Made by a program: the position numbers and the translations under genes. DNA of 64,000 nucleotides from a virus: IMG/VR virus record IMGVR_UViG_3300023174_000084, positions 1 through 64,000 of that record. One strand, written 5' to 3'. The notes beneath the pieces were generated by a model, which was not told where the DNA came from, did not search any database, and saw nothing but the letters and a program-made list of their open reading frames with translations. Of the stretch, positions 2,716 through 56,306 are shown in pieces (the first letter of the stretch is position 1; each line of letters begins with the position of its first letter).

Positions 2716-3411
2716 TTAAGCCTTTGGAGATTTTCTCCTGATAGACATCATAACAGGACTTTTCTTTTTACGAGGTAAATAAACACCTGGTTCGCCACCT
2801 TTAGGTAGTCCACTACCAGCAATTGCACCACTACTTACAACATTGGTTGGACCGGCAGAACCACCCATAGCACCATCTTCTTTTAATGAATCAAAATGTG
2901 CTTGTGCTTCTCTTTTGGATTTAAACCTTTGAATCATACCTGTTGGTTCAGTAACTTTATACTCCACATGGTCGCTTGTTCGTCCTGATGGATTGTTTAT
3001 TTTCTCAATCTTTGGAGTTGTTTTTACTATTGGTTTAATATATTTTTTAAACCTATCTTTTAAATCTGTTTCTTCTGGTACACAATTAGGCACCATACGA
3101 TTGCCTTTTTTCTTCATACCTTTTGCTGTGTATCCTGCCCAACAAGCTTCATCAACTTCTTCTGTTTTTACATTGATTGGTGCACCACGGCGTTCTGGAT
3201 TTGGATCTTCTCTACGCTTTCTTTGAGCGGCACTAGCACGAGCTTCTTTACCAATTGCGTGAGCTTTGGCCTGAGGTAAACATTTTGGTTTACCTTCGCC
3301 TGGTTCTCTTGCACAGTCACCTTTGATATTACCTTTGGTGTCCATGCGAACCCATTTCTGCTTAAACCACTTGCGTAAATCTTCACCGAGATATTGTTTG
3401 AAGGTTTGCAT
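2716..3411 (-). CDS. Head-associated protein with CTS-like leader and basic repeat domain
   Basis: I choose the ATG at 3411, not an upstream one at 3423, because it overlaps the previous gene's stop as TAATG and yields the leader MQTFKQYLGE, which matches neighbouring leaders. The product is 231 residues. After the leader comes a basic, cysteine-containing module (KWVRMDTKGNIKG through REDPNPERRG), then CWAGYTAKGMKKKGNRMVPN, both of which I know as recurring segments in T4-like phages of aquatic hosts; the first resembles a DUF5872-type domain. The C-terminus is glycine/lysine rich. L8-x-E10 fits a gp21 cleavage site. It is probably a packaged internal head protein; function unknown. Confidence 0.65.
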   Translation of the reverse strand: MQTFKQYLGEDLRKWFKQKWVRMDTKGNIKGDCAREPGEGKPKCLPQAKAHAIGKEARASAAQRKRREDPNPERRGAPINVKTEEVDEACWAGYTAKGMKKKGNRMVPNCVPEETDLKDRFKKYIKPIVKTTPKIEKINNPSGRTSDHVEYKVTEPTGMIQRFKSKREAQAHFDSLKEDGAMGGSAGPTNVVSSGAIAGSGLPKGGEPGVYLPRKKKSPVMMSIRRKSPKA

Positions 3412-3731
3412 TAGCAATTCCACTTTCTTAGTGCTTTGTTGATACGGCTATCTGGATCATTCGCTGTCTTGGCAGATGTTAATCGTTTCTTCATTCCACC
3501 CATTCTGGCACAAAATGATTTTCTACGATTAGCTGCCTTAGAACCTGGTTTTAGTTTAGATGGCTTTGTTGTAACAGCCATGCTTAATTTAGAACCTGGA
3601 TTTTCTCTGCGATATGAAGCAATACCTTTACGATTCAATCCGCCTTCTGGATCTTTACCTGCGGCTCGTTGCCACGCAGGAGATTTTTCTTCTAAGTATT
3701 CTTCCGTTACGAATTGCTTGAAAGTTTTCAT
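3411..3731 (-). CDS. Small basic head-associated protein with CTS-like leader (DUF6321-like)
   Basis: A 106-residue protein that begins MKTFKQFVTE, nearly identical in pattern to the T4 internal-protein leader MKTYQEFIAE. The rest is strongly basic with conserved stretches (SPAWQRAAGKDPEGGLN, KRLTSAKTANDPDSRINKAL) that I recognise as a small family in T4-like phages and related elements, DUF6321-like as far as I recall. Such basic proteins could bind DNA in the head. Its start overlaps the upstream gene by four bases and its stop overlaps the next start. Confidence 0.7.
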   Translation of the reverse strand: MKTFKQFVTEEYLEEKSPAWQRAAGKDPEGGLNRKGIASYRRENPGSKLSMAVTTKPSKLKPGSKAANRRKSFCARMGGMKKRLTSAKTANDPDSRINKALRKWNC

Positions 3732-4114
3732 ATTTTCCTCAATATCTCTGCGACATTAACATCTATTGGTATCTCTACAACAGAAATGTTTTTACCTCTG
3801 ATACCGTAAACTATTTCTGGTACAATATTCAAATAAGACAAAAAAGTTTTCAATATATCATAATCTCGTTCATCTATCTTATAGAATAATATTCTTGCCG
3901 TTGCTTCAGGACCAAAAACATTGTTCAATAAAATAATGTGATTTAATATCAATCTCTCTTTAAGAGATTTTGTAATTTTGTATCTACGGAACAAACGCTT
4001 CAAATACTTTGTTCTTTTGATATCACTTTCAAATTCAGACATAATACAATGTGGTGCATTATAACATTTCATTGCATATATCAAAAAATTATCATCATTC
4101 AATTCATCAATCAT
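3728..4114 (-). CDS. Conserved T4-like phage protein of unknown function
   Basis: A 128-residue protein. The pattern YAMKCYNAPHC at the N-terminus, a basic YLKRLFRRYK segment and RLILNHIILLNNVFGPEATARILFYKI (read at about 52-80) matches a family that I know from many T4-like cyanophages, always without assigned function. It is helical with no catalytic motif. It overlaps both neighbours by one to four bases. It lies between two genes with CTS-like leaders but has no such leader itself. Confidence 0.7.
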   Translation of the reverse strand: MIDELNDDNFLIYAMKCYNAPHCIMSEFESDIKRTKYLKRLFRRYKITKSLKERLILNHIILLNNVFGPEATARILFYKIDERDYDILKTFLSYLNIVPEIVYGIRGKNISVVEIPIDVNVAEILRKI

Positions 4115-4578
4115 TATTCTTCTTCTATATCGTCATCCTCAGATTCTTCAATATGTTTTGCTAATTCTTCTGCGTCCATTATTTTTGCTTTTGTTTCATA
4201 ATGGCCATCATCTTGCAATTCATAACTATAATAGAAGAAATATTCTGTTTCATCTAAATTGTTTAATTTCTCCACTTTGCCACACAGTCCGGCACCAGAC
4301 TTGGCACCGAACTGATCCACGGCAATTATTTCTTCACCTTCTTCCATGTTGGTGAATGTTATTTTGGGAGGAGAAATCCCATACAGATTTAATACTTTTG
4401 TTACTCTGAACAAATCAGTATATGGGTTCACCGAATGTCCAGTTGATGCTAGTGCTAAGTTTCTATTCAATTCTTGACGTGCTTGAGCATCGTCTAAATT
4501 TATATTATTGACGATAACTGTCGCAGTGGGGAAACTAAAATCTCCCCACTCTTTCAAGTATTGTTGAAAAGATAACAT
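4114..4578 (-). CDS. Unknown protein with CTS-like leader and acidic tail
   Basis: A 154-residue protein that starts MLSFQQYLKE, with L8-x-E10 in the register of the T4 capsid targeting sequence. The middle section is mixed alpha/beta (FRVTKVLNLYGISPPKITF, then a short VDQFGAKSGAGLCG loop), and the C-terminus is very acidic (EESEDDDIEEE). No family is recognised. It directly follows the capsid decoration protein with a one-base overlap, consistent with a head-related role and possible packaging. Confidence 0.6.
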   Translation of the reverse strand: MLSFQQYLKEWGDFSFPTATVIVNNINLDDAQARQELNRNLALASTGHSVNPYTDLFRVTKVLNLYGISPPKITFTNMEEGEEIIAVDQFGAKSGAGLCGKVEKLNNLDETEYFFYYSYELQDDGHYETKAKIMDAEELAKHIEESEDDDIEEE

Positions 4579-5261
4579 TAGGTAACTGTGTTAATTACAG
4601 CGTTAGCACTATTAACAGCGGTAGCTTCTGTACCTGTTGCATTAACAACGCAACGCAATACATAGTTGTTAATTGTTCCGTTAGTAGGTGCTACTACCAA
4701 GTTAGCCGTTGTTCCGCCAGTATAAACTGCACCAGAAGGTGTACCATTTACAACGTTGACCCATACACCGCCGGTGTTGTTGTTAACTTGCCATTGATAT
4801 GTCAATGGAGCTGCTGTATTACCTTCGGTGATACTTGCTACTACACGGAATGTTGCGCCATTGGCACTAGTTATGTTAGCAGTATTTTGACTTGGTTGTG
4901 AAGTGATTGTAATAGTAGCGTCTGGATAGATTGGACTTGTATTGTCTGTGATAATGCCGGTAGCAATCAAAACTTCTTGTTGCACACGACCTGCACGTCC
5001 ACCAGAACCAACGGTGCGTAACACCCATCCGCTATGAGCTACTTGGTCATTAACATCAGCTTCAAAAGCATCAACGGCAAATAAACCAATAGTTTCATCA
5101 GTAGTATAAACATCTGCTGTTGTATTTTGGTATAATCTTGCTACGTTGGCTGCTGTTGGAGCAGAGTAATTAATTTTCACATTTTGTGCATTAACAATCG
5201 TTGAATTTACAGCCCAATATGGTGCGTTGGCTGCGTTATCGTTATTTCCCCATGATGGCAT
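4578..5261 (-). CDS. Virion surface protein with C-terminal Ig-like domain (Hoc-like)
   Basis: A 227-residue protein. The N-terminus (MPSWGNNDNAANAPYWAV) and the segment GWVLRTVGSGGRAGRVQQEVL at about 78-98 match a structural protein family common in T4-like cyanophages. Residues from about 115 form an Ig-like beta domain with the typical YQWQ core tryptophan and a YVLRCVV strand. Ig-like domains on phage heads, such as T4 Hoc, decorate the capsid and bind surfaces or glycans. A clear ribosome site (AAGGAG) and a CATAAATA late box lie upstream, so late expression is expected. Confidence 0.75.
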   Translation of the reverse strand: MPSWGNNDNAANAPYWAVNSTIVNAQNVKINYSAPTAANVARLYQNTTADVYTTDETIGLFAVDAFEADVNDQVAHSGWVLRTVGSGGRAGRVQQEVLIATGIITDNTSPIYPDATITITSQPSQNTANITSANGATFRVVASITEGNTAAPLTYQWQVNNNTGGVWVNVVNGTPSGAVYTGGTTANLVVAPTNGTINNYVLRCVVNATGTEATAVNSANAVINTVT

Positions 5262-5304: not shown

Positions 5305-6501
5305 TTAATTATCGTTGTTCTTATTTGCTTTTCTCATTACAGGATCAATTTCCAAAGTATCTCTAGTTTGACCTGTCAAAGTTTTACCACCTTTTAAAAC
5401 CATAGCTGCTTGAGTATCTTCATCTCCATAGGCTTCTTGTTTTTCAACCTTTGGTTTCTTTCCATAAGTAGCTACCGATTTATCTTCTTTTTCATGGTCA
5501 TATATTTCTTCTTTGACCATTTTGTGTTTTTTATATAATGATTTAATGATACGAGCAGATTTAGACATTTCTTTTTGTTTAGAATATGTTGGTTCTCTAT
5601 CGTCTGCTTGATTGGCCATATCAAAAGGCATCTGTGTTGCTGCATAGGTATCTTGAAATACATCTTCTTTCATTTTCAATTCATCTTTTCTTTTACCAAA
5701 AGTCTTATGAACCAGAGTATCTAATTTTTTATGAAATAAAGTTTCTTTTGCTTTACTGATACCAGGATCCGCTGCTTCTTTATTAAGATGTTTCTCTAAA
5801 CGGTCAATAGCACCTTTTAAATCACCAGTTGGTTTTTCATACTGGCTGTGTTTCTTTTCTCTTTCTGCTGCAGCTTTACGAAACTTATCTAAAGCTGTCA
5901 TTTTTGGTTTCTTTGCTTCAGTCATTGCACCCATGGCACGAACTTTGTCCATAACTGCTTGGTGATCCAGAGCGCCACGAGAATCTCTCTCATCTTCTAA
6001 AGCACGCAAATGGTCTTTTGTAACATTCATACCATGACGGCGAATCAATTCTTTAGCAATTTCTTCGTGATTATCAAAACCTTCTTTATGTAAACCATTA
6101 TGTTTAAGAACTTTGGTCATATGTTTCTCTCTGTTTAGAGCATGTTGGCGTAATTCAACAGGAGTATGTTGTAATGTTTTACCTTCTTCAATTTCAACTT
6201 CTTCTCGTTGAGCTCTTTGCGCTTTCATTTTTTCTCTTGTAACAGATGAAACATAATCAGCTGGATCATCAAACATATGGTCACGCTTCCATTTTTGAAA
6301 CTCAGAAGATTTAGAATGTGATATTTTAGTATCTTTGCCTACGAATTCAGGATTAATACCACGAGACCTTAGATAAGCATGCAACATGCCGGCTTCACTC
6401 TCTGTGATACCTGCACGAACTGACCATGGTTCATTTGGGTCGGTGCCAAAGGTGGGTTTCTTTTCACCCTTAACAATTAATTTTAATTTCTTTGCGTCCA
6501 T
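5305..6501 (-). CDS. Charged modular head-associated protein (probable prohead polyprotein)
   Basis: A 398-residue, extremely charged, helical protein with no enzyme motif. It is built of short basic segments separated by acidic linkers such as EEVEIEEG (about 98-105) and MKEDVFQD (about 284-291), which fit the (L/I/V)-x-E rule for gp21 cleavage. An N-terminal WSVRAGITESEAGMLHAYLRSRG segment appears folded. It is followed closely upstream by a related larger modular protein. I infer that it is an internal head or core component processed during maturation; the sequence does not prove this. Confidence 0.6.
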   Translation of the reverse strand: MDAKKLKLIVKGEKKPTFGTDPNEPWSVRAGITESEAGMLHAYLRSRGINPEFVGKDTKISHSKSSEFQKWKRDHMFDDPADYVSSVTREKMKAQRAQREEVEIEEGKTLQHTPVELRQHALNREKHMTKVLKHNGLHKEGFDNHEEIAKELIRRHGMNVTKDHLRALEDERDSRGALDHQAVMDKVRAMGAMTEAKKPKMTALDKFRKAAAEREKKHSQYEKPTGDLKGAIDRLEKHLNKEAADPGISKAKETLFHKKLDTLVHKTFGKRKDELKMKEDVFQDTYAATQMPFDMANQADDREPTYSKQKEMSKSARIIKSLYKKHKMVKEEIYDHEKEDKSVATYGKKPKVEKQEAYGDEDTQAAMVLKGGKTLTGQTRDTLEIDPVMRKANKNNDN

Positions 6502-6510
6502 TATTTCACC

Positions 6511-8157
6511 TTAACCGTTATTTCCTGGTGCTTTACCTAACATCTCTGTTTTGATACGTTTCATTGCTTGACGAGCCAAATCTTTAGCACGGGACATTGG
6601 TGTATGCTTTGCACCAGATTTATCTGTTACTGTGCCACCAATTTTTTTGTAAGGTCCATCAAAAGGAGGTTGCTCAGCATTTGTTACAAAAGGAACTGTA
6701 TCCGATTCAGGATGTTTACCTTCTGTAACACCACGAGCTTTGGCCAAATTTTCTTTTGAAGAAATAGAATCTTTACTTCCAGCCTTTGCATCAGCAACTG
6801 TCAATGGTTTGTCACCACGAGCTTTGCGAATGAAAGCTGGAATGTCAGACTTTTTTACTTCTTCTTTCATTGGACCTCCACGAAATTTTACTTTTGTGGA
6901 TTTAGCATCAGAACCAGGACCAACATCATCTTTTTGTGCTGTTGGTTCTTGGCCTTTTAATGTGTCTTTGGTACGAACATTTGGATCGATTTCTTCTTCG
7001 ACTGTATCTTCTTTCATTGCCTGTTTTGTTGCTGTAGCATACATTACAGATTTAGCATCTTTTCCATAACGCTGTCTAAATCCAGCAAAGCCTTTTTTCA
7101 TAGACTTAACAATCTTCTCACGCTTGGCCATTTCAGCATCAGTCATTTCTTTTTCTTCTAATTCATACACTTCTAATAAAGCATCAATATCTTCATCAGA
7201 CCAATCTTCATCTTCTTTACGGAGCTTAGCAAGAATAGCACCAGCGACACGCTTACCTGCTTCAGCAGAACCATAACGCTCACCAGCTTTCTTTGCAATC
7301 ATACCAAATGCTTTACCTGGTTTACCAATATCTTTTCCAGCACGAGCCGCTTTAGCTGAATAACCAGCTTTTTCATCCAGTTCTTCAACTTCTTCTTTTA
7401 CTGATTTCCAACCACCACCCATTGCTTTGTATTTCTTTGAAGCCCAACCATTTGCGTAAGCAGATGGATATACTGCAAATTTAGATTTAGCAGCTGCTTT
7501 TGCTTTAGCCCATTTCTCTGGACTTGTTGGTACATTCTTCTCATCAATTTGTTCTACATCTTCTTTGTGCATCTTTTCTACATGTTTAGAAACTTCACCA
7601 TCTTTGCCATGCATTTTCTTTTCGTGCTTTTTTACTTCAGCTTCACAAGAAGCTTCATCTAATTCAACTTCTTCTTTCTGTTGGGCACGGAGAATTGCAA
7701 AGTCTTGAGAATCAATTTTGTTATTTTTATTCTTATCAATCTTGTGTTGTTTACCTTTTAAGGCTTCAAGTAATTTATTCTTAAATTCCATTTCTTCATC
7801 GTAACGACCACGAGTTTTCTTCTCATCTTCTACATCTTTTTTAATCAAGTCTTTTGTCTTTGGACCTTTTAATGTGTCAACAACATGTTTTTCTGGTTTA
7901 GAACCACCGTATGCTTTGGTGGAACGATGAACTAAACCTGTTTTGGTACGAGTAACTTCGCCAGACATAGCTTCATCAACAGTATCTTCTTTAACTGGTT
8001 TCTTACCAGCACGGAGAGATGCTAAATCACCGCCATCAATCTCATCTTTTGGATGTTCAATTTTGGCAATTTCTTTTTGCTTAGCTGACAGTTCTTTTTC
8101 TGTAATTTCTTTTATAGCTTCAGCAATTGAATCCATTTTTAACTTGTTGACAAACAT
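6511..8157 (-). CDS. Modular polyprotein with repeated KEE-type linkers and an EF-hand loop
   Basis: A 548-residue, lysine/glutamate-rich protein. The start at 8157 is supported by AGGAG eight bases upstream. Small modules are separated by acidic linkers: KEDTVDEA (56-63), KEEVELDEA (161-169), KEDVEQIDEK (198-207), KEEVEELDEK (254-263), KEDTVEEEID (382-391), KEEVKK (431-436). A dockerin/EF-hand-like loop spans D141-D152 (DKNKNNKIDSQD). Modules such as SPEKWAKAKAAAKSKF and RYGKDAKSVMYATATKQAM recur, as I recall, in hypothetical proteins of T4-like cyanophages. The linkers resemble prohead protease sites, so it may be matured into several peptides inside the head. Confidence 0.65.
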   Translation of the reverse strand: MFVNKLKMDSIAEAIKEITEKELSAKQKEIAKIEHPKDEIDGGDLASLRAGKKPVKEDTVDEAMSGEVTRTKTGLVHRSTKAYGGSKPEKHVVDTLKGPKTKDLIKKDVEDEKKTRGRYDEEMEFKNKLLEALKGKQHKIDKNKNNKIDSQDFAILRAQQKEEVELDEASCEAEVKKHEKKMHGKDGEVSKHVEKMHKEDVEQIDEKNVPTSPEKWAKAKAAAKSKFAVYPSAYANGWASKKYKAMGGGWKSVKEEVEELDEKAGYSAKAARAGKDIGKPGKAFGMIAKKAGERYGSAEAGKRVAGAILAKLRKEDEDWSDEDIDALLEVYELEEKEMTDAEMAKREKIVKSMKKGFAGFRQRYGKDAKSVMYATATKQAMKEDTVEEEIDPNVRTKDTLKGQEPTAQKDDVGPGSDAKSTKVKFRGGPMKEEVKKSDIPAFIRKARGDKPLTVADAKAGSKDSISSKENLAKARGVTEGKHPESDTVPFVTNAEQPPFDGPYKKIGGTVTDKSGAKHTPMSRAKDLARQAMKRIKTEMLGKAPGNNG

Positions 8158-8158
8158 T

Positions 8159-9955
8159 TTATTTCTCCTGTTTCTTCTTTTTAATTTTTACTTGTGTACC
8201 AATATTTCTGTCCGCATCTTTATAGGATTGCATGGGTTCAAAATTAGTAGACCCATTACGAACACCGCCTACACCCATATCAGATATAGAAATGTCGTTT
8301 TGAAAGCCGTTATATTCTTTAATTGTTTTTCTAAAACTATTAAATTCTTTTTGTTCTCTGTATGTTACATCGCCTAGACCGGACATGGGATATACTGTTC
8401 CCTGCTGGCGTGTATCAAATTCTGGACCGATGCCCGTTGTGTTTCTTAATCTTTGACTAACAGTCGGTGCATCGGTAAATCGTTTTTTATTCTTTACTTT
8501 TTCTTTGTCTTTGGAGAAGTTGGCTTCTTTTGGGACTGGTTTGATTTCGAGCGTTGGGCCTTTGGCTTCGCTATAGGTGCGGAAGGTGTAGGTTTTTGTT
8601 CGCTTACCGGCGTTGTAACGGAGGTCGTCTGCTTGGGGCTCGTTTCCTCGGTTGTCGGCGGGCAAACTATCGAGGCCACCTGCTCGGAGTTCTGGATTGG
8701 TTTTAATTTTAGTAAATTTATTAATGCTTTGAACATTTTTTTCTTCCTTAATTTTATTATCACCTATATTTAATTTACCATGCTTTTCTAACCACGATAA
8801 AGAAATGTCACCATAGGTTCGGTTTTCAATAAATTCATTGATATTTAGGTAAGTTTGAGTTATATCTTCCTCAATACTTTCCAATGAACCAGTATTGTCA
8901 ATCTGTTTAAATTTTCTAAAAGATTCTGCAAAAAATTCTTTATTTTTCTGAGCTTGCAACCACTTATCATAACGAATAGATTCGACCATCATACGAGATA
9001 ATTTGGTATTTCTTTCTTGGCTAACCTCATTGGTGGTATTGACGAATACCATCATAGTTCTATAACCAAGTTCTTCTAGTTCTTCTTTAATGTGATTAAT
9101 TTTATCGATATTGTCTGCTGGTCCATTGATAATTAATGGACCACGGTTACGAATGGCTTCTCTACGGAAGTCATTGGTTTTTTCAGATAGTTTCTGTTTG
9201 TCGGCAAGATAATCAAAAGCCTGTGTGGCATTAAGTTCTACAGCACGAGCCTCTGGTATAGCTTCACGGATAATGATATCTTTACCAGAACCAGGTCCAC
9301 CGGTCACAAAGATTGCTTTGAATAGACCACGGTTGATGTTCTCATGCAATCCCATACCTTTGCGTGTATCGTGATATAGTTCTTTGGCATGGTGGTCGGC
9401 AACGTGCTCTGGTACACCTTTTTTAAACTCTTTGTAATTACCTGAGGCTGCGTGTTGGCGCATTTTGGTACCAGACATACCTTCGGAACCTTCAGCATCT
9501 GGATCACGATGGCCAGCAGAATGAATAGTAATTTTTTTGAAATCGTAATGGCCGTGTTTACCTTTTACACCATTGTATTTGTTTAATGAATCTTTAAATT
9601 CTTTAACACGGTCAGAACCAACCACAACATGAAGGTGAGTTACACCTTTCTTATGCAATTCGGATGCATGGTGAAAAATAGATGGATGTTCTTTGGAAGA
9701 TGTTTTGAAATTTGTACCTGGTGCATATCGTTTCAGGTGTTTTACTTTTTGTTCACCAGATAGAGGATTCTTTTTGGAATCTTGTGAATGTGAAACCACC
9801 ACAGTATGTTCTGCGTTATGTTTATCTGCAACTTCTTTTACTTTATGAATAAGTTTTAAGTGGCCAGTTGTAGGAGGATTCATGCGACCAAAGGTCATTA
9901 CATGGTGTTTCTCACCTTGTTTGGTTTCTTCAACTAATTCTAAAAATGATTTCAT
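8159..9955 (-). CDS. Bifunctional nucleotidyltransferase (NMNAT/cytidylyltransferase-like) plus P-loop kinase with CTS-like leader
   Basis: A 598-residue protein in three parts. Residues 1-10 (MKSFLELVEE) form a CTS-like leader. Residues 18-200 are an HxGH-class nucleotidyltransferase: GRMNPPTTGH at 23-32 supplies the nucleotide-binding motif and MSGTKMR at 160-166 is the ISSTxxR-type motif. A P-loop kinase-like domain follows, with Walker A GGPGSGK at 219-225. This order resembles NadR (NMN adenylyltransferase plus ribosylnicotinamide kinase), but the substrate cannot be read from sequence. The last 200 residues are low-complexity and basic. Its start overlaps the ligase-like gene stop (ATGA). 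A packaged, injected enzyme is the inference. Confidence 0.7.
   Translation of the reverse strand: MKSFLELVEETKQGEKHHVMTFGRMNPPTTGHLKLIHKVKEVADKHNAEHTVVVSHSQDSKKNPLSGEQKVKHLKRYAPGTNFKTSSKEHPSIFHHASELHKKGVTHLHVVVGSDRVKEFKDSLNKYNGVKGKHGHYDFKKITIHSAGHRDPDAEGSEGMSGTKMRQHAASGNYKEFKKGVPEHVADHHAKELYHDTRKGMGLHENINRGLFKAIFVTGGPGSGKDIIIREAIPEARAVELNATQAFDYLADKQKLSEKTNDFRREAIRNRGPLIINGPADNIDKINHIKEELEELGYRTMMVFVNTTNEVSQERNTKLSRMMVESIRYDKWLQAQKNKEFFAESFRKFKQIDNTGSLESIEEDITQTYLNINEFIENRTYGDISLSWLEKHGKLNIGDNKIKEEKNVQSINKFTKIKTNPELRAGGLDSLPADNRGNEPQADDLRYNAGKRTKTYTFRTYSEAKGPTLEIKPVPKEANFSKDKEKVKNKKRFTDAPTVSQRLRNTTGIGPEFDTRQQGTVYPMSGLGDVTYREQKEFNSFRKTIKEYNGFQNDISISDMGVGGVRNGSTNFEPMQSYKDADRNIGTQVKIKKKKQEK
8494..8736 (-). 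CDS. Possible overlapping gene, lysine/proline/threonine-rich 80-residue protein
   Basis: In a second minus-strand frame inside the C-terminal tail of the nucleotidyltransferase gene, an ORF begins MFKALINLLKLKP and continues as a P/T/S/K-rich tail ending in PKTKKK. A strong ribosome site (AAGGAAG) lies seven bases before the ATG. The host gene is low-complexity here and the local base composition is clearly more GC-rich than its surroundings, as expected where two frames constrain the sequence. No family is recognised. The alternative is a chance open frame in a repetitive tail. Confidence 0.4.
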   Translation of the reverse strand: MFKALINLLKLKPIQNSEQVASIVCPPTTEETSPKQTTSVTTPVSEQKPTPSAPIAKPKAQRSKSNQSQKKPTSPKTKKK

Positions 9956-11127
9956 TTTCTAACTTTAAGTAAATTGGCTTTTGCGAATTCTGCTCTATTA
10001 ACTAATTTTGTTGGTTCACCTGCATGATGAACCACAAATCCTTCTGGTTTAGACTTCTTATTATCTATATGATGTTCCAGGCCACCTTCGTGTTGATTTA
10101 ATGTATCAACTAATACATTCTTAGCCTGTTGTAGGTGATGATGCATCTTCAATAGGTTGTTATAGTGTTCTTCATTACCTTGAATATGACTAGTATGTGT
10201 TTTTAACTCTGTCATTTTACGGGACTGAGCAGCAGGCGTTTTTAATTTACCAGCAGCTTTTTTGTAAATATCAGTAATGTGTTTTTGTAAACCTTTAGCT
10301 GTTGGTTTCTCATCTGTGCGAACAGTTTTATTGATATATGTGGACAATGCACCAGTTTCACCGCTATGAGGATGAGTTGCACGATACATTGTATCACCAT
10401 GTTTATCGTGAATTGCCTGAGCTGCTTCAATGTGTTTTTTATATTGTTCTTGTGCTTTTTCGGTATAATTTACTTTGCTTGTGTCATGTTCAGCAGACTT
10501 GTGCCACACATCTTCGTGTTGTTTAAAGTTATGAACGTCCGGATGTGGATCAGCTTTCATATCGGTAATATTTTTACCATGATACTGTGTATGTACCACA
10601 ACACCAACCTTAGCCTTTTTAATCCTATCTGCCTGTTCACCTTTGGCAGTATACCGAATGGTATTTGGAGTAAACGAAACACCACTTTTGGTTTCTTTCT
10701 TATCATCATGACCAAACATGATGTCACCTTGATACACTCCTTTCTTCGGAGCAACTTTTTTAAGGTGTAGGGCGTCTTTTAGTTTTGAAACCAATCCTGG
10801 TGCGTGTCCGTGATTCTTCTCAATATCTTTTTCTGTATAGTTAATCTTTGGATTCTTATTAAATGCGGACTTACTAGCAACAAAAAACTTGCCCGTTTCT
10901 GGATGATGTCCAAATACTACTGCCGGAGAACCATCATATTTCATGGTAAGATTGGAACTGTGGCCACCAGATTTAATTTGGTTGTGTGCAGAATTCAACG
11001 CATCTCTGGCGTGTTCAAAACCTTTTGCTCCATGAAAGAGTGGGCGATCCTCAGCATGATGAATATGCTTGAGTTTGCCATCAACTTCCTGAGTTTCCTC
11101 TTTCAGAAACGATAAAAAAGACCGCAT
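9952..11127 (-). CDS. RNA/DNA-ligase-like nucleotidyltransferase with CTS-like leader (DUF6267-like)
   Basis: A 391-residue protein. After the leader MRSFLSFLKE come hallmarks of covalent nucleotidyltransferases: motif I KYDGSP (K63 as the expected adenylated lysine, D65, G66), a motif III-like YQGDIMFG around 132-139, motif IV EGFVV at 362-366 and a motif V-like TKLVN with K374. The spacing and wording resemble T4 RNA ligase 1 (KEDGS and EGYV motifs). Ligation or capping activity is an inference. The family is, to my memory, listed only as a DUF6267-type hypothetical. A TATAAATA late box lies 46 bases upstream, and it is cotranscribed with the nucleotidyltransferase-kinase. Confidence 0.65.
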   Translation of the reverse strand: MRSFLSFLKEETQEVDGKLKHIHHAEDRPLFHGAKGFEHARDALNSAHNQIKSGGHSSNLTMKYDGSPAVVFGHHPETGKFFVASKSAFNKNPKINYTEKDIEKNHGHAPGLVSKLKDALHLKKVAPKKGVYQGDIMFGHDDKKETKSGVSFTPNTIRYTAKGEQADRIKKAKVGVVVHTQYHGKNITDMKADPHPDVHNFKQHEDVWHKSAEHDTSKVNYTEKAQEQYKKHIEAAQAIHDKHGDTMYRATHPHSGETGALSTYINKTVRTDEKPTAKGLQKHITDIYKKAAGKLKTPAAQSRKMTELKTHTSHIQGNEEHYNNLLKMHHHLQQAKNVLVDTLNQHEGGLEHHIDNKKSKPEGFVVHHAGEPTKLVNRAEFAKANLLKVRK

Positions 11128-11172: not shown

Positions 11173-11180
11173 TATTTATA
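11173..11180 (-). promoter_or_regulatory. T4-type late promoter box (TATAAATA)
   Basis: A perfect minus-strand TATAAATA, followed by AGCAAC, lies in the 137-base gap before the ligase-like gene. This is the consensus late box of T4-like phages and implies that the head-protein block downstream is transcribed late. The rest of the gap shows nothing else clear. Confidence 0.75.
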
Positions 11181-29015: not shown

Positions 29016-29720
29016 ATGAACGAACTAATTTATGTTTTACTGACAACTCATCTAACAATCATCGCCGTAACTCTATATCTACATCGTAGCCAAACTCATC
29101 AAGGTGTTACATTTCATCCAGTAGTAAATAATTTTTTTCGTTTTTGGTTATGGTTAACCACAGGTATGGTTACAAAACAATGGGTAGCCATTCATCGTAA
29201 ACACCATGGTATGACCGACCAAAAAGGTGACCCACATTCACCTCAATTATTTGGTATCTGGAAAGTTTTATTTGGTGGTGCACTATTATATAATACAGCC
29301 AGTAAAGATACTCTAATGGTTAATGCGTTTGGTAGAGGAACACCAGATGATTGGATGGAAAAAAATGTATATAGCAAACACAGTAGATTAGGAATTACTT
29401 TGTTATTACTAATTAATTTACTTTGTTTTTCTTGGTGGGGTTTACTGATTTGGGGTATTCAAATGTTGTGGATACCTTTGTTAGCTGCAGGTGTAATCAA
29501 TGGAATTGGTCACTATTGGGGGTATAGAAATATCGAAACAAGAGAATCATCTAGAAATATTTTCCCTATTGGTCTTATTATTGGTGGCGAAGAGCTTCAC
29601 AATAATCACCATGCTGATGCTGGTTCTGCCAAGCTTAGTAGGAAGTGGTTTGAATTAGATATTGGTTGGTTCTATATTAAATTTTTAGAGAAACTTAAAC
29701 TAGCAACACTCAAGCATTAA
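29016..29720 (+). CDS. Fatty acid desaturase (acyl-CoA/acyl-lipid delta-9 type)
   Basis: A 234-residue membrane di-iron desaturase. The three histidine boxes are H23RSQTH28, H60RKHH64 and H195NNHH199, and a further histidine lies in NGIGHYWG (about 162-169). Hydrophobic segments alternate with these boxes in the usual way. It introduces a double bond into fatty acids and would alter host membrane fluidity, which needs host electron donors (ferredoxin or cytochrome b5-type). The length is short compared with bacterial enzymes (about 300) but no box is missing. An auxiliary metabolic gene of the phage. Confidence 0.9.
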   Translation: MNELIYVLLTTHLTIIAVTLYLHRSQTHQGVTFHPVVNNFFRFWLWLTTGMVTKQWVAIHRKHHGMTDQKGDPHSPQLFGIWKVLFGGALLYNTASKDTLMVNAFGRGTPDDWMEKNVYSKHSRLGITLLLLINLLCFSWWGLLIWGIQMLWIPLLAAGVINGIGHYWGYRNIETRESSRNIFPIGLIIGGEELHNNHHADAGSAKLSRKWFELDIGWFYIKFLEKLKLATLKH

Positions 29721-30033
29721 AAGAAGAACCACAACCACAGGTAGATTTGGCGTTTGGATTACTGATAACGAATTGTGAATTAAATTTTTCTTCTTTATAA
29801 TCCAATGTTGCACCTTGTAGGTACTGAGAAGATATTACATCAACTACTATTTTGATTCCTTCATTCTCAATTACAAAATCATCTTCAGCAATTTCTTCCT
29901 CAAAAGTAAAACCATATTGATAACCAGAACAACCACCACCTTGAACAAACATTCTCAAAGCTCCATTCGGTAGTTTTTCTTCTACCAGTAAATCACGAAC
30001 CTTGTTAATTGCACTTGCAGTTATTGTTATCAT
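29710..30033 (-). CDS. iscA-like: A-type iron-sulfur carrier (IscA/ErpA-like)
   Basis: A 107-residue HesB-family protein with the three ligand cysteines C35, C99 and C101 (GGGCSG and STCGCGSSF). This family carries Fe-S clusters from the scaffold to target proteins. It follows IscU with a 29-base overlap, and converges with the desaturase, overlapping its 3' end by eleven bases. Together with IscU it forms a minimal Fe-S assembly pair; cysteine desulfurase (IscS) and HscAB are not in this window, so host partners would be needed. Confidence 0.92.
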   Translation of the reverse strand: MITITASAINKVRDLLVEEKLPNGALRMFVQGGGCSGYQYGFTFEEEIAEDDFVIENEGIKIVVDVISSQYLQGATLDYKEEKFNSQFVISNPNAKSTCGCGSSFNA

Positions 30034-30403
30034 GTTTTCCTTTGTAATCGTTTATTGCAGCCTTAATAGCGTCTTCCGCAAGGATTGAACAATGAATCTT
30101 AACTGGCGGGAGTGAGAGTTCTTCTGCAATTTGAGTGTTCTTAATTGATGCAGCCTCGTCCAATGTTTTACCTTTGACCCATTCCGTGACAAGCGAACTA
30201 CTTGCAATGGCTGAACCACAGCCGTATGTTTTGAATTTTGCATCTCTAATAATTCCATCTTCTACTCGTATTTGTAGTTTCATAACATCACCACATGCTG
30301 GTGCACCAACCATACCGGTACCAACATTAACATCACCTGAATCTAATTTTCCTACATTGCGAGGATTTTCATAGTGGTCTATAACTTTATCTGAATATGC
30401 CAT
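30005..30403 (-). CDS. iscU-like: Iron-sulfur cluster scaffold (IscU-like)
   Basis: A 132-residue scaffold of normal length (about 128 in E. coli). The ligands C37, D39, C62 and C105 with H104 are all present. The HscA recognition motif LPPVK (98-102) is intact, which suggests that it works with host HscA/HscB. The C-terminal tail has extra cysteines (NNNCKCN), which is unusual and may be a chance addition. It overlaps IscA downstream and follows the 53-residue protein upstream. Confidence 0.93.
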   Translation of the reverse strand: MAYSDKVIDHYENPRNVGKLDSGDVNVGTGMVGAPACGDVMKLQIRVEDGIIRDAKFKTYGCGSAIASSSLVTEWVKGKTLDEAASIKNTQIAEELSLPPVKIHCSILAEDAIKAAINDYKGKHDNNNCKCN

Positions 30404-53740: not shown

Positions 53741-54385
53741 TTAAAGTTTTTTTACGAGTGATTCCCAAATGCGTAGACTTACTTCTTCAATTTCTCTTTG
53801 AGAAGCCTTTTTAATTGCTTGTTTGGCTTCAGAGTATTGCTGTTCAGTCCATACACCATTGACCATCACCCATTCTTTGCCTTCCATAATACCTTGAACG
53901 AAAGCATTTGGAGCAGAAGGGTCTGCTACAATATCCGCCGCTGTGGCTAGATGAAAATCATCTTGAACTACATTGACACCATTGACAGATTTGAGAGAAC
54001 CCATACCACGAGATGATACTCCAATCTGAGCACCACCTTCGATAAGGCTCTTAACAATCTGACCCATAGGTGTGTCAAGAATCTTTGCTTTGCCTATCCA
54101 ATCATTTCCCTCTTGACGAAGGCTCACAACCATGTGGGAAACTCTGTCAAGATTGATTGATGGGGTGTCTGGATGACCCAGCTCACCAAAGGCACGATTT
54201 TTATTGATATATTGTTCTGTGTATCTTTCTACTTCTTTGGCCATGGTCTCTTTGAGATATTTACGGCCATTACGGTTTACCACTTCTGCTTGGAGAAATG
54301 GACCCTCAATGTAAAGATTACGCTTGCCGTCTTTATCTTCAGCAAGATATTGTAGTGTTTCGGTGACTTCTGTTATTAACTTCAT
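53741..54385 (-). CDS. gp21: Prohead protease gp21
   Basis: A 214-residue serine protease (herpes-type fold, family S78-like). The catalytic histidine is H71 in GELGHPDTP and the serine is in IGVSSRGMGS (S124 or S125). It matures the head by cleaving scaffold, capsid and internal proteins at (L/I)-x-E sites. This enzyme is the expected processor of the CTS-like leaders described in findings. Length matches T4 gp21 (212). Confidence 0.94.
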   Translation of the reverse strand: MKLITEVTETLQYLAEDKDGKRNLYIEGPFLQAEVVNRNGRKYLKETMAKEVERYTEQYINKNRAFGELGHPDTPSINLDRVSHMVVSLRQEGNDWIGKAKILDTPMGQIVKSLIEGGAQIGVSSRGMGSLKSVNGVNVVQDDFHLATAADIVADPSAPNAFVQGIMEGKEWVMVNGVWTEQQYSEAKQAIKKASQREIEEVSLRIWESLVKKL

Positions 54386-55353: not shown

Positions 55354-55893
55354 TTATTTTGTACCAGTTAATCCGTATGGTGGATAGTTAAATGCAGCTG
55401 GATCATTAAACTGTCCACGCTGATAATATTCATTTAACTTTCTCAATTCCATAATAATTGTATAACTTGATGTGTTGCAATTTGGTGCTAAACGACTTCT
55501 AATACCAATATCGCCATTTGTATTAGCGATAGCAGTATTAGGATTCGGTATTGTTACCCAATTTCCGTTACCATCGTATTCTCCATTACCATTCATCAAT
55601 AGAATAGTTTGTGGATCATCAGAATACCAATACAGCTCAACATCACCTTCATATGGCCATGTGTCGTACCAAACTCGGTTGACAGTTAAACCATAATATG
55701 GCTTGGCTGTATTACTTAAACTTAAATGTGTCTTTAAAGGCACATTGTTTGCATCTAACGCACCGTATAGTGTATTTGCTTGTATACGATGTGCATTATC
55801 TTCATTTGTAGAACCGTCAAACGAACCTGTTATTTTAATAACGGCGTGTTCTGTGGTATCTTTAACAACCTGATATGTAAACTTATTCGGCAT
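55354..55893 (-). CDS. Virion structural protein, paralogue B
   Basis: A 179-residue protein with the same frame: DTTEHAVIKITGSFDGS near the start, ALDANNVPL in the middle and QFNDPAAFNYPPYG at the end. Against paralogue A only scattered positions and the tail are conserved, so the duplication is old. Rich in beta strands. Function unknown. Confidence 0.75.
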   Translation of the reverse strand: MPNKFTYQVVKDTTEHAVIKITGSFDGSTNEDNAHRIQANTLYGALDANNVPLKTHLSLSNTAKPYYGLTVNRVWYDTWPYEGDVELYWYSDDPQTILLMNGNGEYDGNGNWVTIPNPNTAIANTNGDIGIRSRLAPNCNTSSYTIIMELRKLNEYYQRGQFNDPAAFNYPPYGLTGTK

Positions 55894-56113
55894 TTACTTC
55901 TTCATCCATGGAACCTGTTGAGGACCATTGCATGGCAGTATATGGAACGGTTACATATTTATTAATCTTATCAACATAATAAAGAGCTACTCTCTGATTG
56001 TTTGGAAACTGACGAATCGATTTTCGTTTCATAATCAATACCGCAGGTGGATCCATGGGAGCACTATGGTCTTCCTTTTCATTCAAAGATCGTAGTTCTT
56101 TAAGTGTTTTCAC
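55883..56113 (-). CDS. Small structural protein downstream of the prohead core gene (GTG start)
   Basis: I choose a GTG at 56113 with AGAGGA before it, which yields MKTLKELRSLNEKEDHSAP; a longer ATG frame would run inside the previous gene. The 76-residue product has DPPAVLIMKRKSIRQFPNNQ and ALYYVDKINKYVTVPYTAMQ, which resemble a cyanophage family of small head proteins. It overlaps its neighbours by 11 and 14 bases. Confidence 0.6.
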   Translation of the reverse strand: MKTLKELRSLNEKEDHSAPMDPPAVLIMKRKSIRQFPNNQRVALYYVDKINKYVTVPYTAMQWSSTGSMDEEVNAE

Positions 56114-56306
56114 TTGTATTTTCCTCTGGTTGAATTTCTGTTTCAACTTCTTCTGTTTCTTCTGGCGCAAACATATTCTGTGCAACAGCTTGTTTGGCAG
56201 CATCTAAATGTGCAGTAACACGGTCATGAATGTTAGCATATAATGCATCACGCATTTCTTTAGCATTATCATTAACTGCATAATCTATAATTTGTCTTGT
56301 GTCCAT
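56100..56306 (-). CDS. gp67: Small prohead core protein (gp67-like)
   Basis: A 68-residue protein with helical start (IIDYAVNDNAKEMRDALYAN) and acidic tail (EETEEVETEIQPEENT). Position directly after gp20 and its composition match gp67, the prohead core protein of T4. A TATAAATA box lies 18 bases upstream, inside the portal stop region. Confidence 0.7.
   Translation of the reverse strand: MDTRQIIDYAVNDNAKEMRDALYANIHDRVTAHLDAAKQAVAQNMFAPEETEEVETEIQPEENTSENT

Follow-up and report, generated by a model that had tools for sequence, protein, structure and literature searches.

The window, the whole 64,000-nt stretch of viral DNA that was analysed, belongs to a 115,580-base virus record with T4-type head genes, including those for gp23, a scaffold protein and a gp21-type protease; PADLOC returned no defence-system match. 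On its minus strand, an ORF with an ATG start encodes a protein of 598 aa with strong matches to PHROGs 3041 and 395, both labelled 'cytidyltransferase'. Its sequence reads, from the N terminus, as a leader followed by an HxGH-type nucleotidyltransferase (NTase) that looks intact, then a P-loop kinase fold and finally a variable tail (Table 1). Pfam matches to CTP_transf_like (aa 21–167, E 2e-7) and Zeta_toxin (aa 229–350, E 2e-5) both exceed the cut-off, and an AlphaFold2 model built on 92 aligned sequences has two well-folded domains with a mean pLDDT of 89.6, in which a loop adjoining the NTase active site (aa 151–157) is disordered. A search of solved structures by sequence, with the full-length protein as query, found no match. 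Elsewhere in the window (29016–30403), a fatty acid desaturase gene adjoins a pair of genes, NifU_N and Fe-S_biosyn; these are probable auxiliary metabolic genes.

Table 1 Features of the NTase–kinase locus and of the candidate leader-processing protease (window coordinates)
Feature	Position	Strand	Evidence
NTase–pseudokinase gene, 598 aa (pseudokinase predicted)	8159..9955	(-)	phrog_3041 E 9e-64, phrog_395 E 1e-46
Capsid-targeting-type leader MKSFLELVEE, aa 1-10	9926..9955	(-)	position matrix, relatives, T4 leaders
HxGH nucleotidyltransferase domain, aa 17-207	9335..9907	(-)	Pfam, PHROG, AlphaFold2, alignment
FGRMNPPTTGH motif, aa 22-32	9860..9892	(-)	H32 in 90/90, R24 in 85/90 relatives
GSDR motif, aa 113-116	9608..9619	(-)	alignment
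SGTKMR motif, aa 161-166	9458..9475	(-)	R166 in 87/90 relatives
Degenerate P-loop kinase domain, aa 211-392	8780..9325	(-)	Zeta_toxin, AlphaFold2, Foldseek, alignment; dN/dS 0.073
Altered P-loop GGPGSGKD, aa 219-226	9278..9301	(-)	alignment
Variable tail, aa 393-598	8162..8779	(-)	domain search: none found; dN/dS 0.33
ATGA overlap, 4 nt, DUF6267 stop / NTase start	9952..9955	(-)	kept in 45 relatives
DUF6267 gene, ligase-like, leader MRSFLSFLKEE, motifs KYDG, QGD, EGFV, K	9952..11127	(-)	E 2e-95
T4-type late promoter TATAAATA upstream of DUF6267	11173..11180	(-)	kept in 42/50 relatives
gp21-type prohead protease (Peptidase_S77), expected leader-processing enzyme	53741..54385	(-)	E 2e-38

The HxGH nucleotidyltransferase that an earlier note on this DNA had read from TTGH and MSGTKMR is confirmed by the CTP_transf_like match and by the presence of both TTGH and SGTKMR. 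Among 90 relatives, T29 and H32 are invariant. The [H/T]xGH and SxTxxR signatures of NadM/NatV-type NMN adenylyltransferases (NMNATs) are present, and the NadM/NatV NMNATs provide the nearest profile (hhalign probability 90%, E 2e-6); in single-sequence comparisons with the NTase profile, NadM reached 62%, CoaD 47%, NadR 7% and NadD 2%. The catalytic Arg, the His of HxGH and the Arg of SxTxxR are common to the NTase and the NMNAT of M. thermautotrophicus. Against solved structures, the NTase profile retrieved weak matches only (MJ0951, NadR and MjNMNAT), along with S-layer noise.

The kinase-like domain is of the zeta/PSTK/polynucleotide-kinase type by family profile and by fold, with a Foldseek match to the Pnkp kinase at a TMt of ~0.6; Pnkp of Clostridium, adenylate kinases and thymidylate kinases are among the best fold matches to this part, and a search over both domains placed fungal ATP sulfurylase first, at a TM-score of ~0.3. 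The P-loop kinase reported earlier thus stands as a fold but not as a canonical P-loop, which reads GGPGSGKD rather than GK[S/T], and further kinase residues are altered. The window has NATQ at the catalytic-Asp (NSD) site and INGPAD at Walker-B, so that both Asp residues are lost. Across 52 aligned domains, three positions (the one following GK, the Asp of NSD and that of Walker-B) combine into three states: S,D,D (n=5), D,D,N (n=8) and D,other,N/T (n=39, including this one), the catalytic Asp being missing in the last 39. The alignment suggests that the P-loop S-to-D and Walker-B D-to-N changes arose together, perhaps as a compensating swap, which would leave room for residual kinase activity, and that the catalytic Asp was lost after this pair had changed. 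Median dN/dS rises from 0.073 in the kinase-like domain to 0.158 in the NTase and 0.33 in the tail; the strong purifying selection on the first indicates that the altered domain is useful, and we regard it as probably a nucleotide-binding pseudokinase. Kinase homologues with intact motifs stand alone, as in HTVC008M gp129, which adjoins its NTase, and Melnitz_118, which has its own leader. Agrobacterium phage Atu_ph07 gp053 (L091:2236–4572) also carries a kinase with intact motifs; the RGM/STS region N-terminal to it has no Pfam match and looks, by eye, like an ADP-ribosyltransferase fold.

The proposed resemblance to NadR did not survive comparison with family models. The TIGR01526 equivalog model scored 20.5 bits against a cut-off of 341 bits, rejecting NadR identity, and PF13521 had no match in the genome, rejecting a NadR-type ribosylnicotinamide kinase. 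A profile of the kinase domain aligned with NadR at only 37% probability, over the P-loop, and the type of the domain and its lost catalytic Asp likewise speak against a NadR-type kinase.

With few exceptions among the viral loci examined, the gene for DUF6267 lies just upstream of the NTase gene, and the conserved 4-nt overlap between them bears out the suggestion that the NTase gene is cotranscribed with a ligase-like gene. The DUF6267 motifs K63xDG, QGD, EGxV and K374 fit those of the covalent ligase superfamily, and K63, D65, G66, E362, G363, V365 and K374 are invariant in 68 sequences. Its fold is predicted with confidence (pLDDT 92.6). A Foldseek search with this model gave no match below 0.001, all fold matches having E values of at least 0.5; these weak matches include tRNA-ligase, NAD+-ligase and Rnl structures, the best ligase match being a tRNA ligase at a non-significant probability of 0.28. 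Profile comparison with T4 Rnl2 gave no match, sequence comparison with solved structures gave chance matches only, and a literature search for DUF6267 found no paper. DUF6267 and the NTase are fused in a single ORF in seven loci, and PHROG 455 includes such a fusion.

The N terminus of the NTase–kinase protein resembles the leaders of T4 internal proteins, which in the deposited T4 record read MKTYQEFIAE (ipII and ipIII) and MKTFKEFTS (ipI); starts among the relatives include MKSFLELVEE, MKSFKQFVTE and MKTFNGFITE. A position matrix built solely from the leaders of other phages, T4 MKTYQEFIAE included, was run over the 1,928 possible starts in the genome and set six at the top, with DUF6267 fifth and the NTase gene sixth, in agreement with the earlier claim that both genes carry leaders. 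The leader of the NTase gene is the weakest of this set (7.0 bits, with ~1.6 chance hits expected at 6 bits or more) and its assignment therefore rests mainly on conservation in relatives. Among 131 adjacent DUF6267–NTase pairs, the leader occurs on both proteins in 96, on DUF6267 only in 25, on the NTase only in 6 and on neither in 4. At least one leader is thus present in 127 of the 131 pairs, as it is in 6 of the 7 fusions; other ORFs give a background of 8%, which itself seems to include many true leaders. Because one leader often serves the pair and the fusions need only one, this pattern suggests that DUF6267 and the NTase travel together.

Three more leader-like starts are found on the minus strand at 2716–5261 of the window: MQTFKQYLGED, MKTFKQFVTEE (with DUF6321) and MLSFQQYLKEW. 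The second, at 3411–3731, is close to the T4 ip leaders, and the genes are a probable cluster of internal head proteins, judging by these starts. Downstream of the NTase gene (5305–8157, minus strand) are two proteins (398 and 548 aa) that match no Pfam family and contain many acidic segments resembling EEVELDE or EDTVDEA; these segments may be sites at which a core protein is cut by protease. The fourth start in the leader scan, MLGFMQNISEA, belongs to a 313-aa ORF of no known family on the opposite strand (G000 109546–110487 (+), L174).

The late promoter upstream of DUF6267 lies 50–68 nt away in the relatives that keep it, nearly always at 50–55 nt, with a background of 2.4% per 250 nt. The window contains only four TATAAATA sites, all on the coding strand just upstream of minus-strand genes; the other three (33857, 53732 and 56324, minus strand) precede hsp20, the scaffold gene and a gene at 55883–56203 between portal and protease, a placement as expected of late promoters. 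In the window the motif occurs less often than chance would predict, so it is the placement and the conservation of the sites, rather than their number, that give it meaning. Synthesis at a late stage suits a protein of the virion and does not suit an enzyme that the producing cell needs early.

Relatives are widespread, with 555 phage records for the NTase domain and 461 for DUF6267. Carriers of either are mainly phages of Synechococcus and Prochlorococcus, together with Pelagibacter and Methylophilales phages, and giant enterobacterial phages have a stand-alone NTase without a leader. Genomes L104, L135, L139, L141, L142, L146 and L158 contain, in addition to the first NTase, another paralogue, which starts MK[DN]Y[RK]QL. 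The T4-GC190 cluster, whose label P-SSM2 gp194 bears, is a cyanophage core gene that was detected in S-SM1 virions (PMC3037559). NMNAT-like proteins have been found in S-SCSM1 and S-CBWM1 virions, with a proposed role in NAD supply (PMC9602691), and S-CREM2 ORF154 (start MKNFSSFLTEA) appears in a list of virion proteins (PMC10665884); the authors of these virion reports caution that detections may be carry-over. On sequence grounds, we assign the gene to this known and common family of head-packaged phage NTases, as a variant with an apparently degenerate kinase fusion. Packaging of the protein in the head is well supported, because a T4-like leader, a conserved late promoter, a gp21-type protease and virion proteomics of the family all point to it.

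On balance, we favour the reading that the protein is a late-made, T4-like internal head protein that is injected, with an active NTase and a non-phosphorylating pseudokinase, and that it works with DUF6267. The ten-residue leader would target it to the prohead core, the gp21-type protease would probably cut the leader after Glu, and the protein would probably be injected with the DNA at infection. Its N-terminal domain is expected to be a working NMNAT/PPAT-type nucleotidyltransferase that places a nucleotide, most likely AMP from ATP, onto the phosphate of an acceptor. The kinase-like domain, with general base and Walker-B Asp lost, would phosphorylate nothing; its probable role is to bind a nucleotide and to position or regulate the enzyme. 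The partner would be DUF6267, a putative covalent nucleotidyltransferase of ligase-like type from the same operon, and the occasional fusions are consistent with a physical complex.

The earlier speculation that the enzyme restores NAD is possible from the sequence and is not the reading we favour. In its specific form, an injected NMNAT would make NAD from NMN and ATP on entry, feeding metabolism or countering NAD-depleting defences; the profile match and the three catalytic residues common to the M. thermautotrophicus enzyme speak for it, as do the reported NMNAT-like virion proteins, and an NMNAT carried in the virion has already been proposed in its metabolic version (PMC9602691, PMC10665884). 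Phage proteins that are true NMNATs have no leader, and three of the five examined adjoin NAMPT/NAPRT. The Asp..Trp segment of NadM and NatV has a role in nicotinamide stacking. This D..W motif is kept in MtNadM and in all five phage NatV-type proteins but was not found in the NTase, and no Trp is conserved among its 90 relatives. Neither PF04095 (NAPRT/NAMPT) nor Nudix had a match in the 115-kb, possibly incomplete record. NAMPT is widespread in other phages, yet Synechococcus, which accounts for 374 of the 555 NTase records, is not among its ten commonest names. An injected NMNAT would also leave the constant ligase-like partner unexplained, and we consider it unlikely.

That partner is central to a different possibility, nucleic-acid end repair or modification, in which NTase, kinase-like domain and DUF6267 would act on RNA or DNA ends as infection begins. 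The invariant KxDG, EGxV and K motifs shared with RNA/DNA ligases, the ligases among the weak DUF6267 fold matches, the Pnkp match of the kinase-like domain and the DUF6267–NTase fusions all fit, but the DUF6267 fold matches fall short of significance, the kinase domain is without catalytic residues and there is no known RNA substrate, which makes this rather improbable in our view. A more elaborate version, in which the packaged proteins make up an injected end-processing machine, differs from the NMNAT reading in having a polynucleotide acceptor for the same chemistry: the NTase would adenylylate an RNA or DNA 5'-phosphate, the pseudokinase would hold the end and DUF6267 would seal or transfer, repairing cuts made by host defences in the first minutes of infection. 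We offer this as a long shot. A purely structural role as internal head proteins, with old enzyme folds that have lost catalysis and serve to fill or organize the core, is also quite improbable; the packaging signals, altered kinase residues and variable tail are compatible with it, but across 90 diverse sequences the catalytic residues of the NTase hardly vary.

Among marine T4-like phages the NTase belongs to the core genes, and its description as a virion protein dates back to 2010. What is new here is the evidence from leader and late promoter, the fusion to a degenerate kinase, and the recognition of DUF6267, with its covalent-ligase motifs, as a constant and sometimes fused partner. Leader plus conserved late promoter gives a simple rule for telling which proteins these phages bring into the host, and the constancy and occasional fusion of DUF6267 suggest a machine of two proteins. 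Should the NTase act as infection begins, few injected phage enzymes in water would be more widespread.

Several known systems share parts of this design. NadR likewise has an NTase followed by a P-loop domain, but our protein scores far under the model cut-off, has no ribosylnicotinamide-kinase family match and has no HTH domain. NadM and KVP40-type NatV have in common with the NTase the HxGH fold, the GRxxP..xGH start, the Ser/Pro-Phe-or-Leu loop and the S[G/A]TxxR end; unlike them, the NTase is without the D..W nicotinamide motif and has GSDR and RDPD insertions, and its protein has a leader, no Nudix domain and no NAMPT nearby. Zeta-toxin, PSTK and polynucleotide kinases resemble the second domain in fold and through the Zeta_toxin match, whereas here the catalytic and Walker-B Asp are lost and the P-loop ends in GKD. 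Fungal ATP sulfurylase also joins an HxGH-type NTase to an APS-kinase-like P-loop domain, and that domain is degenerate and regulatory; with a TM-score of ~0.3, a large rmsd and low identity, the likeness is an analogy only. T4 IPI, IPII and IPIII share the N-terminal MKTYQEFIAE-type leader and the expected late expression, but here the cargo has several domains and resembles an enzyme rather than a small inhibitor. The cyanophage 'cytidyltransferases' of T4-GC190 and PHROGs 3041 and 395 have the same NTase domain and the same DUF6267 neighbour, a leader in many members and virion detection in S-SM1 and others; most of the T4-GC190 cyanophage members are without the kinase-like domain, whereas in our protein it is fused in and degenerate.
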